Part shown: positions 31,470-35,735 of the stretch, piece by piece
Position numbering within the stretch: position 1 is the stretch's first letter
How the letters are laid out: each line of letters opens with the position of its first letter
Assembly (NCBI RefSeq): GCF_018156225.1
Contig: NZ_JAGTAR010000041.1
Span: 1 to 48,894 of the forward strand
DNA: 48,894 nucleotides
From: Carboxylicivirga sediminis
GTDB lineage: Bacteria > Bacteroidota > Bacteroidia > Bacteroidales > Marinilabiliaceae
Direction: 5' to 3'
Made by a program: the position numbers and the translations under genes
The notes under the pieces: model-generated
What the model was told of the DNA's origin: nothing
Seen by the model: only the letters and a program-made list of their open reading frames with translations
Databases searched by the model: none

Positions 31470-32546
31470 ATGTCTGCAAATTCATTTGGCACCCTATTTA
31501 AGCTCACCTCTTTTGGTGAGTCGCACGGAAAAGCAGTTGGTGGTATCATTGAAGGTGTACTACCCAACACGCTTATTGACGAAGACTTTATTCAGAGCGA
31601 ATTAGATCGTCGTCGCCCGGGCCAGTCAGCCATTACCACACCTCGCAATGAAGAAGATAAAGTGGAGTTTTTATCAGGCATCTTTGAGGGCAAGGCAACC
31701 GGTACACCTATTGCCTTTGTTATCTGGAACAAAGACCAGCGCTCCAAAGACTATGGTAATATTGCCGATGTGTATCGCCCTTCGCATGCCGACTATACCT
31801 ACCAGAGCAAATATGGGATACGCGACTACCGTGGAGGCGGCCGTTCCTCAGCACGCGAAACCATTGCCCGTGTAGTGGCAGGTGCAATAGCCAAGCTGAT
31901 GCTGCAGCAACAGGGCATCACCATTCAGGCATTTACATCAAAGGTAGGACCAATACAATTGGATAAGTCCTATGAAGAGCTTGATTTAGCCAATACAGAG
32001 AATAACATTGTACGATGCCCCGATACCACCATAGCCGATAAGATGATAAATTACATTGACGAGGTGAGAAAAAGCAAGGATTCGGTGGGCGGCATCATCA
32101 GCTGCGTTATTAAAAATGCACCCGTTGGACTGGGCGACCCGGTTTTTAATAAACTACACGCTACCCTGGGCCAGGCCATGTTGTCCATCAATGCCGTTAA
32201 AGGTTTCGAATACGGATTAGGCTTTGGAGCTACTAATTTAAAAGGCTCGGAGCACAATGATGAATTTTATATGGAAGGCGACCGGGTAAGAACTAAAACC
32301 AATCGTTCCGGCGGCATCCAGGGGGGTATCAGCAATGGTGAAGACATCTATTTCAATGTAGCCTTTAAGCCCATTGCCACCATTCTTATGGAGCAGCACA
32401 CGGTGAACCGTAATGGAGAAGAAATAACATCGACCACCAAAGGGCGCCACGATCCTTGTGTGTTGCCGCGAGCAGTGCCAATTGTAGAGGCCATGGCTGC
32501 CATCACTATAGCTGATCATATTTTGGTGAATAAGATGTACAGATAA
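31470..32546 (+). CDS. aroC: Chorismate synthase
   Basis: Last step of the shikimate pathway: eliminates phosphate from 5-enolpyruvylshikimate-3-phosphate to give chorismate, with reduced FMN as helper. The 358-residue protein has the family signatures [18 protein letters not shown] at the N-terminus, [19 protein letters not shown], the [13 protein letters not shown] signature near residue 125 and [16 protein letters not shown] near 285, ending with [18 protein letters not shown]. Length is normal (about 350-390). It is not in a recognisable aro operon. A terminator follows the stop by 20 bases, then the hairpin-rich spacer starts. Confidence 0.97.
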
Positions 32547-32566
32547 TAAAACACTATAAGAGTCAG

Positions 32567-32595
32567 ATGCCAATCCGTGAGGGTTGGCATTTTTT
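32567..32595 (+). terminator. Rho-independent terminator of aroC
   Basis: Stem ATGCCAATCC/GGGTTGGCAT around GTGA (one wobble), followed by six T. It lies 20 bases after the aroC stop. Confidence 0.9.
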
Positions 32596-32663
32596 ATATG
32601 CTGATTCGCATCGTTTTTTAAATATATCAAGTGATAATCTATTAATTATGCATATCAATAGTT

Positions 32664-32839
32664 GAACCCACTCCGGGGTTCTGTTTGTAATGTATTAATA
32701 TACCATGGGTTGCAGCCATGGTTATTAAAAATAAATCCCTTCGGGATATAAAAATGTCCGTAGGACATTAATAATAATAGCCCCGTGCGAAGCGTGGGGT
32801 TATGAATATGGTGAGAAAACACAACCCTGTTATGGGTTG
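32664..32839. repeat. Cluster of six distinct short hairpins
   Basis: Six separate perfect or near-perfect stems with different sequences lie back to back: 32664-32681 (GAACCC/GGGTTC), 32702-32722 (ACCATGG/CCATGGT), 32735-32747 (ATCCC/GGGAT, TTC loop), 32753-32769 (AATGTCC/GGACATT, GTA loop), 32778-32802 (11-bp with wobbles, GAA loop) and 32822-32839 (CAACCC/GGGTTG). The A/T-rich joints are of similar length. The style resembles interspersed REP-like hairpin clusters of Bacteroidota, as I recall them; no transposase (RAYT) is adjacent. Confidence 0.75.
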
Positions 32840-32882
32840 AAGGTTTATATTCAGCAAGTTTAACAATTGATTCATATTAATT

Positions 32883-33218
32883 GCCGATACACTGTGTACT
32901 CGGCAAAAATTAAAAAAGCGTCGATACACGGTGTATCCATCATTTTTGAACTTGGCGAAGCAAATACAAAGTGTATTTTGCATTTTTAGACTTGGTGGAG
33001 CAAATACAGCGTGTATTTCGACTTTTTAGGACTCAGCGGGCCCGATACACGGTGTATCGGCTTGTCTGAAGAGTAAAACAACCAAATACACGGTGTATCG
33101 GCCAGTTTTAATACCTGGGGAGCAAAATACACGGTGTATCGGGTTGCCCAACAAAAAAACTGGTAAATACACGGTGTATCCGTTTTTTACACTTTCCCGG
33201 TATAAGTACACGAAATAT
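32883..33218. repeat. Regular array of ATACA-NNG-TGTAT mini-hairpins, about 40-bp period
   Basis: Eight copies of a 13-base hairpin core, ATACA, a 3-nt loop ending in G, TGTAT (the first copy ends TGTAC), have loop centres at 32893, 32930, 32970, 33010, 33051, 33092, 33133 and 33173. Spacings are 37, 40, 40, 41, 41, 41 and 40. A decayed ninth copy (GTACA-CGA-AATAT) is centred at 33212, 39 further on. The loops are CTG, CGG, AAG, GCG and CGG four times. Flanking bases often extend the stem, for instance to CCGATACA/TGTATCGG at 33042-33060 and AAATACA/TGTATTT at 33002-33018. The 24-25-base spacers differ, except that the spacers after copies 2 and 3 are alike. The period is not a multiple of three. 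Confidence 0.9.
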
Positions 33219-33233
33219 ATTGGCTTCCAGAAT

Positions 33234-33278
33234 AACCAGCATAGGAGAAAATTAAGTCTCCTATGAACCTGACTGGTT
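33234..33278. repeat. Nested dyad upstream of the fucosidase gene
   Basis: An 8-bp perfect stem (ATAGGAGA/TCTCCTAT, arms 33241-33248 and 33257-33264) lies inside an outer AACCAG/CTGGTT pairing (33234-33239 and 33273-33278). It is 109 bases before the GH95 start; an operator or RNA structure is possible. The remaining bases up to 33386 show no other feature. Confidence 0.5.
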
Positions 33279-33386
33279 AGAATGATAATAAAGAGGTAGC
33301 TGAATGTACAAACATAATGCCCTTACAACAATGATTTGGTATATTTGAGGCTAATCATATAATTCACCGCATATCCTTTCAAAATA

Positions 33387-35735
33387 ATGAAAAAACTACA
33401 CCTGTTTCTTTTTATCATCGGCCTGTCAGCCATCTGCTCTTGCCGGCAAACAACCAATAAAGCCACCAATCATGTTTTATGGTACCAACAAGCTGCCGAA
33501 AACTGGAACCAGGCCTTACCCATAGGCAATGGGCGCCTGGGAGCCATGGTATTTGGTAAAACTGATACCGAACGCATACAACTGAATGAAGATTCGATGT
33601 GGCCGGCTGATTTAGGCTGGGATGAACCCGCAGGACAGGCAGAAGACCTTCAGGCCATTCGTCAACTACTATTTGAGGGTAAGCATCAGGAAGCAGATGC
33701 CATGTTTGTCGACAAGTTCTCACGGAAATCAGTTGTTCGCTCGCACCAGACGATGGGTGATTTATGGCTTGATTTCAAACATGACAACATCAGTGATTAT
33801 CGACGTGAGCTGGACATAAATACGGCCATTGCCACCACCACTTACAAAGCAAACGGCTACCAATTTAGTCAAAAAGCGTATGTCTCGGCGCCACACCAGG
33901 TAATGGTGATTGAACTAAAGAGTGAAGCGCCCAATGGCATGAATGGTTCTATACGACTGAGCAGGCCCGATGATAAAGGACACACAACAGCAAAAAGCTA
34001 CACCGATGGCAACAAGCGCTTATTGATGGAAGGTGAAGTTACACAGCATGGTGGTGCTTTTGACTCCCAGCCAGCCCCCATCAACCATGGCGTGAAATTC
34101 CAAACGCTTTTGCATATCGAAAACCACGATGGGCAACTTACTACCACCGGGAATTCCATAACATTGCAAGGCGTTAAAAACGCTGTTATTTACCTGGTAG
34201 CCAACTCATCATTCTATCATGATGATTATGCGGCCCAAAACAATGAACAGCTGCAACAAGCACTCAGTTTGTCTCCTGAGCAGCTGGAGCATACGCATAT
34301 TGCCGATTATCAGCAACTTTACCAACGCGTTGACTTGCAACTTAGCGGCGAGATGCTGGACAGTATACCAACCGACACACGTATTAAACGAGTAAAAGAC
34401 GGTCAAAGCGATATTGGTTTGGAGGCCATGCTTTTTAATTATGGTCGCTACCTGTTGATCAGTTCATCGCGCCCGGGCACCAACCCGGCTAACTTGCAAG
34501 GCTTGTGGAACGAACATATAGAAGCCCCCTGGAATGGCGATTACCACCTGAATATTAACCTGCAGATGAACTATTGGCCAGCCAATGTCACCAACCTTAA
34601 TGAACTTAATCAGCCCTTGTTTAACTATGTGGATAAGCTGGTGGAGAACGGACAGTTAACAGCCCAAAAGAACTTTGGTTGTCAGGGAGCATTTCTGCCA
34701 CATGCCACCGACTTATGGGCGCCTACCTGGCTACGTGCTCCTACAGCCTATTGGGGATGTTCAATGGGTGCCGGTGGCTGGATGATGCAACATTACTGGC
34801 AACATTATTTATTTACAAAGGATACCGATTTTTTAAAAAACACCGCCTTACCAGCCATAGAACAAGTGGCCAGGTTTTATAGCGACTGGCTGATTGAAGA
34901 CCCGAGAGACGGCTATCTGGTATCGGCGCCTTCCACTTCGCCCGAAAACCGTTTCTATGATCAAAACGGGCAGCCTGTTGCCACTTGCCTAGGTTCGGCT
35001 ATGGATCAGCAGGTAATAGCTGAGGTTTTTGATAACTATCTGCAGGCTTGTGCCACCCTGAACATCAGCAATGCATTTACGGAAAAGATAGCCGAACAAA
35101 AGGAACACCTCCGTCCAGGCTTTGCTTTAGATGACCGAGGCCTGATTATGGAGTGGGATCGCGCCTATAAAGAAGTAGAGCCAGGGCACCGCCACATGTC
35201 TCACCTTTATGGATTTCACCCTGGTACAGCCGTTACTGCCAGCGAGACACCTGAACTATTGCAGGCAGTCAGACGCACGCTGGAGCATCGCCTGGCAAAC
35301 GGTGGCGCCGGCACCGGCTGGAGCCGTGCGTGGTTGATTAACTGTAGTGCCAGACTATTAGATGGCGATATGGCCCATCAGCACATACTGGAGCTATTTA
35401 AAAGATCATTGTTCATCAACCTGTTTGATGCGCATCCCCCTTTCCAGATTGATGGCAATTTTGGTTATACAGCCGGTGTGGCAGAGATGCTTATTCAATC
35501 ACACGAAAACAATCTCATACGGTTACTGCCAGCTTTACCGAAAGCTTGGGAAAGTGGCTCGGTTAGTGGTTTAAAGGCAAGAGGTGATGTTACTGTCAAT
35601 ATCGTCTGGACCAAGGGCGAGGTAATATCCGCAGAACTCATCTCTGAAAAAGAATGTAATACAGATATTCTGGTCAATGGTGAAACACATACGGTTCATC
35701 TGCAACCCAATCAACCATACCAATACAGAAAGTAA
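33387..35735 (+). CDS. GH95 family alpha-L-fucosidase-like glycoside hydrolase
   Basis: Probable secreted lipoprotein enzyme of 782 residues that removes alpha-1,2-linked fucose (or galactose) from glycans. Signal peptide with Cys 17 and Cys 19 (ICSC) as likely lipidation site. The N-terminal beta-domain starts [26 protein letters not shown], written here in parts: [23 protein letters not shown]. The (alpha/alpha)6 barrel carries [20 protein letters not shown], of which the Asn pair in NINLQMNYW (about 389) is the family's water-activating pair, SPENRF with the likely acid Glu (about 520) and FQIDGNFG with Asp near 688. [13 protein letters not shown] is also typical. No SusC/SusD pair flanks it. 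Substrate glycan unknown. Confidence 0.93.

Follow-up and report, generated by a model that had tools for sequence, protein, structure and literature searches.

The window, a stretch of 48,894 nucleotides from Carboxylicivirga sediminis, contains a row of short palindromes between aroC and a gene for a glycoside hydrolase of family 95 (GH95). The four genes near the row encode an FKBP-type isomerase, chorismate synthase, GH95 and an exonuclease-like protein. The GH95 gene is the fucosidase gene of the original prediction, which had placed the array between it and aroC. The features are as follows.

31470–32546, plus strand: aroC, chorismate synthase, left neighbour (TIGR00033, 475.8 bits)
32887–33179, no strand: array of eight phased 13-bp dyads, orphan of the DUF6261 type; orthologue in C. 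mesophila, paralogue G000:C11
32887–32899, no strand: dyad 1, ATACACTGTGTAC, head end, one mismatch to ATACANNGTGTAT
32900–32923, no strand: head spacer, 24 nt, A-rich
32924–32936, no strand: dyad 2, ATACACGGTGTAT
32964–32976, no strand: dyad 3, ATACAAAGTGTAT
33004–33016, no strand: dyad 4, ATACAGCGTGTAT
33045–33057, no strand: dyad 5, ATACACGGTGTAT
33086–33098, no strand: dyad 6, ATACACGGTGTAT
33127–33139, no strand: dyad 7, ATACACGGTGTAT
33167–33179, no strand: dyad 8, ATACACGGTGTAT
33206–33218, no strand: decayed ninth copy, GTACACGAAATAT; C. mesophila has the same decayed stretch, 2 bp shorter
33387–35735, plus strand: GH95 gene, right neighbour (PF22124, 546 bits)

The eight dyads follow each other at steps of 37, 40, 40, 41, 41, 41 and 40 bp, and the weak ninth copy lies 39 bp after the start of dyad 8. 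These positions and steps are as predicted for eight phased copies and a decayed ninth, but the match to ATACANNGTGTAT is exact in only seven copies, the first one having C as its last base. With at most one mismatch, ATACANNGTGTAT was found 20 times in the window on both strands versus 1.27 expected, and none of 100 shuffles reached this number. Consistently, a search for chains of dyads at 35–45 bp that was blind to the core gave a score of 16.7, versus a maximum of 7.0 in six local whole-window shuffles. The spacers are 24, 27, 27, 28, 28, 28 and 27 bases long rather than the 24–25 bases first proposed, and their description as mostly unlike each other holds in part. The mean identity of the four 28-nt spacers is 35%, versus 24% (maximum 33%) in shuffles, so they look like decayed tandem copies.

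Paired changes had been described for the outer flanking pairs, where no support was found (p = 0.18 at ±7, falling to 0.07 when the C. mesophila orthologues are included; no significance at ±8 or ±9). Covariation sits instead inside the 13-mer. The ±1 positions around the centre form Watson-Crick pairs in 28 of 39 units versus 16.9 by shuffling (p = 1e-4, uncorrected for relatedness of the units). Overall, the original observation was partly confirmed. An Rfam search of positions 32500–33450 gave no match, the best of the four hits listed reaching 23.1 bits versus a cut-off of 55. To the left of the array, positions 32664–32840 hold a run of short G+C-rich hairpins (e.g. GAACCCACTCCGGGGTTC and AATGTCCGTAGGACATT) that are REP-like in look.

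The genome and its relatives were searched for the core at regular spacing, as the original prediction had proposed, and copies were found in both. A second array with the window's core lies in the same genome (G000:C11), and it has nine units in the opposite orientation. In Carboxylicivirga mesophila JCM 18290 (G011), the window and C11 arrays are present at the same sites, and a third array is located on scaffold_5, 58 bp before a gene of the DUF6261 family (PF19775). The window array and the gene-adjacent array G011:C55 are 81% identical over 210 bases with the same unit order. The arrays C69, C11 and C55 are copies of each other, and where they are aligned, unit i mostly matches unit i of the others best. 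By profile, no DUF6261 gene adjoins the window array or C11, whereas one is present at the homologous C. mesophila locus (L081). Three sites hold arrays across pairs of species; in genome G004, aroC and the GH95 gene adjoin without an array between them.

Comparison of the paralogous arrays showed that the half-sites are kept while the spacers diverge. The ten half-site bases and the spacers changed at 2 of 70 versus 42 of 135, 1 of 50 versus 15 of 79 and 1 of 50 versus 25 of 107 positions, counted over equal-length spacers only (5 of 7, 3 of 4 and 4 of 4 spacers). This was taken in favour of the binding-array reading. At the C11 site, the species differ within units 2–8 at 1 of 91 positions in the dyads and 5 of 163 in the spacers (6 of 254 together), versus 10 of 62 in the left gap. 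Over all nine units the changes are 6 of 113 and 18 of 211, since the outermost units have diverged. The right flank of this site is not homologous between the species, and the coding sequences in the vicinity differ at 20 of 516 and at 27 of 445 positions. The window array and its C. mesophila orthologue (C28) differ at 3 of 104 dyad and 9 of 189 spacer positions and at 23 of 334 and, on the right, 6 of 195 flank positions. The signal at the window site is weak, as the dyads did not change clearly more slowly than the spacers and the right flank changed as little.

The original prediction had overlooked that the window array belongs to a family tied to DUF6261 genes. In C. mesophila (L081), G006 (L119) and G008 (L122), an array lies 50–61 bp before a DUF6261 gene with its head end closest to the start codon. 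A PF19775 search gave 78 matches in 12 of the 14 genus genomes, with up to 11 DUF6261 genes per genome. Seventy-seven genus genes were analysed, leaving out L180 (stops, no open frame) and including L206 (below the Pfam cut-off). The 600 bp upstream of each gene, with the first ATG of the frame taken as the start codon, were scanned for 14-mers repeating at 36–47 bp; the strict rule was at least three units at 40–43 bp (or 37–38 bp), and six of the 77 genes had less than 600 bp upstream. By the strict scan, 53 of the 77 genes have an array, 45 upstream and 8 others downstream. Among the 24 genes without one, four have less than 600 bp upstream, and the array of L122 was seen only by relaxed reading. 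In these eight genes the array comes after the stop codon, and six of them belong to a 216–218-aa subfamily (L163, L170, L173, L189, L190 and L195). The downstream scan was positive for 8 of 72 DUF6261 genes in the genus and 0 of 25 in the order.

DUF6261 was found in 13 of 109 genomes of the order sample, the window's genome counted. In other genera, an upstream array precedes 22 of the 27 DUF6261 genes examined, the best-scoring of 67 matches, and 19 of the 24 that lie outside the family. In contrast, none of 171 upstream regions of control genes, drawn from the window and from 12 further stretches of 20 kb each, passed the strict rule. Sixteen of them have at least three irregular repeats, including the window array, which failed only by its 39-bp last step; the array itself has at least three repeats at 40–43 bp (37–38 bp at the head), and the ninth copy makes the scan count it as non-strict. 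Fisher's test for the association gave p = 1.8e-37, which overstates independence because the genes are related. The absence of the arrays searched for in G007 and G012, the genus genomes without DUF6261, weakly supports the association; G001 has the gene and likewise none of these arrays. A Tannerella locus reached by the window's core (L040) has an array followed by a DUF6261-like gene, and repeats were seen by eye before DUF6261 genes at two Parabacteroides distasonis loci. In the remaining Tannerella stretches fetched, the arrays are not accompanied by a DUF6261 gene. These results show that, in Bacteroidales, most of the DUF6261 genes examined adjoin such an array, which as a rule lies upstream and in some cases downstream.

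Copies with the same core also occur alone between other genes, as in the window. Window-type orphan arrays were found in G010 and G003 (the latter in a GTACAC form), where no close cognate DUF6261 gene was found. A second core type, TRACTANNTAGTYA, occurs at eight places in 5 of the 14 genus genomes, four beside DUF6261 genes and four away from any match, so orphans are not confined to the window's core. In the window's genome, six of the seven DUF6261 genes have an array (five upstream, one downstream), and by eye all six arrays are different. The seventh gene (C67:14871, L159, G000:C67:12500-17500) is truncated at the 5' end, so that 50 residues are missing from the start of its product, and the scan gave no array beside it. 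Its product is 94.7% identical to residues 51–239 of the protein behind the third C. mesophila array, of which it is the orthologue.

Most DUF6261 genes have their own core, e.g. TTCCAAACGTTTGGAA, TGCACGTACGTGCA, GTCATCATGAC, TGCCCAGNCTGGGCA, TTGATCGAATCAA, ATTACCATATGGTAAT and TGACTAAATAGTCA. Core similarity correlates with protein similarity (Mantel r = 0.31, p = 0.0005, 44 arrays), mainly among close proteins; close relatives account for the correlation, and co-inheritance alone could be its cause. Whatever the core, the spacing is nearly constant. Among 270 spacings in 69 arrays, 249 are 41–43 bp (98 of 41, 135 of 42 and 16 of 43), which is about four helical turns. The filter admits only 37–38 and 40–44 bp, but only 2 of 71 chains of at least three units fail it, so it hardly causes the narrow spacing. 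In B-type arrays, which have a 14-bp core, the spacer stays at 27–28 nt and the period is 41–42 bp, so the phasing is not exact. In the same 69 arrays (lags of at most 44 bp allowed), a dyad is clear by the outer-pair rule in 44, which have outer pairing of at least 0.7 and include L133 with its 11 near-identical units. With the axis set from the outer pairs only, the inner pairs are Watson-Crick at 183 of 468 positions in the 44 arrays and at 227 of 662 in all arrays measured, versus a background of 24%. Symmetry varies, some arrays being symmetric to the centre and others not (0 of 20 in L133, 0 of 18 in L223).

Further arrays of the genus were found with a sequence model of the 54-nt unit and with relaxed patterns. 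The model matched 7 of the 14 genomes and gave none in the other seven. G003 has a GTACAC/GTGTAC array, G006, G009 and G011 have 14-bp ATACC/GGTAT arrays, and G008 has mixed forms; the first two types are changed on both sides of the dyad. The core is 13 or 14 bp long and the spacer mostly 27–28 nt at either core length, and the period is therefore 40–42 bp. Of 15 arrays with A- or B-type cores, 14 (all but L079) have a spacer of 24–25 nt near one end, although in L123 the core on its far side is decayed; TRACTA-type arrays have the same short spacer. The arrays L120 (G011) and L123 (G008) lie between look-alike flanking genes in two species, with the cores changed.

The window's core was found in 2 of 393 order genomes and in 7 of 100 related genomes. 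A permuted control palindrome occurred in 2 of 198 order genomes, of which one has 42-bp arrays, and this made it less likely that the ATACAC core as such is peculiar to Bacteroidales. The 21 stretches found by the window's core are, as we take them, all Bacteroidales in the GTDB sense, and a search by that core is biased. Termite-gut Tannerella arrays of the ATACAC-GTGTAT form (L036, L038, L043, L044, L047, L049, L051–L053) repeat at 38–42 bp with no DUF6261 gene in the fetched stretch, and by eye their spacers are hairpins themselves, with paired changes. Prevotella-type genomes (L045, L050, L086, L087) have repeats resembling ATACACTGTGTAT at steps of 22 bp, roughly half the period of the arrays. 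In L084 (G031:C41), tandem repeats of 43 bp are almost identical to each other, with ATACANNNTGTAT cores and a CTTCGTGAAG hairpin inside.

DUF6261 proteins are acidic, with a median pI of 5.46 (n = 99). Only PF19775 matched the adjacent proteins consistently (47 of 47), and no consistent relatives were found by sequence in PDB, Pfam, PADLOC, PHROGs or NCBIfam. The best isolated matches, each to a single member, are ZorA (5.8e-5), phrog_10358 (1.2e-5) and CIS_TMP (1.5e-4), and AbiU2 HEPN (0.0045) and AbiTi (0.0062) were weakly matched by one member each. Two AlphaFold models, with mean pLDDT of 37.6 and 44.4, were too poor for use. One DUF6261 protein searched against phage records gave no match, and one pattern scan and three protein scans of viral contigs gave no relative; plasmid records gave two Parabacteroides distasonis matches, both with chromosome-type genes. 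In the literature searched, DUF6261 is named only in a Streptococcus daptomycin study and PF19775 nowhere, as far as the accessible text goes. Titles and the starts of abstracts gave no account of such arrays, and no paper in the literature searched names Carboxylicivirga together with repeats and palindromes.

The original prediction had offered two readings, a multi-site binding array on one DNA face and a transcript of repeated hairpins, and it is partly supported. The binding array is the better supported of the two, given the 41–43 bp spacing whatever the core and the half-sites kept while the spacers diverge. A transcribed hairpin chain might instead bind or restrain the DUF6261 protein, as in type III toxin-antitoxin systems, but we regard this as unlikely. 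The 41–43 bp repeat and its usual place upstream of a gene of roughly 240 aa do resemble toxI-toxN in repeat and gene size, and the array RNA folds at -114.4 versus -74.2 kcal/mol in shuffles, far beyond them. The z-scores are however alike on the two strands (-8.6 and -7.8), and the array also folds as DNA, mostly in a single fold-back, which self-complementary repeats give in any case. In window-type units the dyad enters the 1-nt centre, with the ±1 pair covarying where an RNA hairpin could not pair. Among mismatched pairs, G-T is not significantly above A-C (37 versus 25, p = 0.16, with low power).

Promoter-like sequence also speaks against a transcript. By eye, L229 and L239 have TTTG-N20-TATCTTTG, which we take to be the Bacteroidetes promoter form, between the array and the ATG, so the array there would not be the gene's leader. 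The TANNTTTG pattern was counted 9 times in 9736 positions of the gap, 7 times in 11690 of the array and 6 times in 18192 upstream. Several DUF6261 genes (e.g. L149, L160, L164, L183 and L193) share, by eye, a stretch resembling CTTTATC a short way upstream of the ATG. In type III toxin-antitoxin systems (toxIN, cptIN, tenpIN), gene-specific tandem repeats adjoin a small gene, according to the accessible part of PMC5086642. The DUF6261 arrays differ in that they can be downstream (the 8 genus genes, against 45 upstream) and consist of dyads rather than pseudoknots, and no ToxN/CptN/TenpN-type family is among the 14 Pfam (E at most 0.01) or 17 PADLOC families matched by 47 members. Taken together, the spacing, the inner dyad pairs, the ±1 covariation, the lack of a G-T excess, the folding and the promoter-like sites favour a putative duplex-DNA platform over RNA.

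The arrays might also be selfish, spread like mobile minisatellites by some transposase with DUF6261 as passenger or helper, which seems improbable. They do occupy different gaps, the copies C69, C11 and C55 share unit order, the aroC-GH95 gap of G004 is free of an array, and arrays of the second core type lie away from any DUF6261 match in 4 of 8 cases. On the other side, homology between array copies begins and ends within palindromes, with no terminal inverted repeat or target duplication by eye, the three sites keep arrays between species pairs, and the half-sites are constrained. The nearest parallel is BrickBuilt, a minisatellite/MITE of Porphyromonas gingivalis that has a leader, a tail and terminal inverted repeats and whose dispersed intergenic arrays consist of 23-nt repeats without spacers (PMC4596501, accessible part). 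Both are intergenic repeat arrays dispersed in a Bacteroidales genome, but the window's period is about 41 bp, no repeat was seen by eye beyond the array ends, and the accessible part of that paper holds no link to DUF6261.

A site for a host protein, such as a nucleoid or replication factor unrelated to DUF6261, would fit the helical phasing and the orphan arrays in G003 and G010 without a close cognate gene. It is very unlikely, as one host protein would not explain cores that differ between genes of one genome, and 7 of the 14 genus genomes have no match to the unit model. Quasi-palindrome correction in replication, a mutational mechanism, could keep the palindromes of functionless tandem copies perfect and yield paired changes without selection, but it leaves unexplained why the arrays go with one gene family, why the spacing varies so little and why the head unit is shared, and we give it hardly any weight.

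Several known systems share features with the arrays. In parS/parC partition arrays, repeated sites lie beside the gene of the binding protein and specificity differs between relatives, but DUF6261 has no ParA/ParB-like match among the matches listed and reaches up to 11 genes per genome. CRISPR arrays also consist of short palindromic repeats with spacers, but the window's repeats are 13 bp, and its spacers are mutually related and common to paralogous arrays in the same order. In REPtrons, a RAYT gene lies beside its own REP palindromes, which are also dispersed between genes (PMC3733652, in the part available). DUF6261 genes likewise lie beside their own palindromic repeats, which are also scattered. 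They differ in having no match to the tyrosine transposase (IS200-like HUH) among the matches listed and in arrays phased mostly at 41–43 bp. A CGTC, which like GTAG would be a candidate end tag, occurs in the window's head spacer. CRISPR, REP/RAYT, BrickBuilt and type III toxin-antitoxin were each set lower, one or more of the defining features of each being absent.

The window array is homologous to a gene-adjacent array and has no DUF6261 gene of its own, which makes it an orphan copy of a DUF6261-type array. With a probability of about 0.5, we propose that it serves as a multi-site DNA platform for a dimeric protein, most likely a DUF6261 product. Several findings speak against it: the proteins are acidic and without consistent relatives, orphan arrays occur in G010 and G003, the phasing of B-type arrays is inexact, the contrast between dyads and spacers is weak at the window site, and 24 genus genes have no array by the strict scan. 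With dyads spaced roughly four helical turns apart, the candidate binder would fill the sites side by side on one helix face; arrays of this clade also have a short, A-rich head unit at one of their ends. Position, co-inheritance and gene-specific cores make the protein encoded by the adjacent DUF6261 gene the obvious candidate, and gene and site may shift together to new specificities. The window copy would then be a detached target. The closest cognate gene in the genome is the one at G000:C67, and since it is truncated, the window copy may be a relic or may be read by a relative of that protein. The wider proposal of a new two-part Bacteroidales element, in which a helical DUF6261 protein reads its own array, specificities diversify gene by gene and detached arrays spread as targets in trans, is tentative, and we hold it at a little under even odds.

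The array family points to an undescribed protein-and-DNA pair. If the binding is true, this would be a new class of protein-site pair; if not, the gene-repeat association needs another cause. With seven DUF6261 genes and six adjacent arrays, one genome offers naturally occurring material for following changes in DNA (or RNA) specificity, and orphan arrays such as that of the window would show where targets in trans lie. Each DUF6261 protein would be paired with a DNA array of its own, which would give this family of unknown function a partner.
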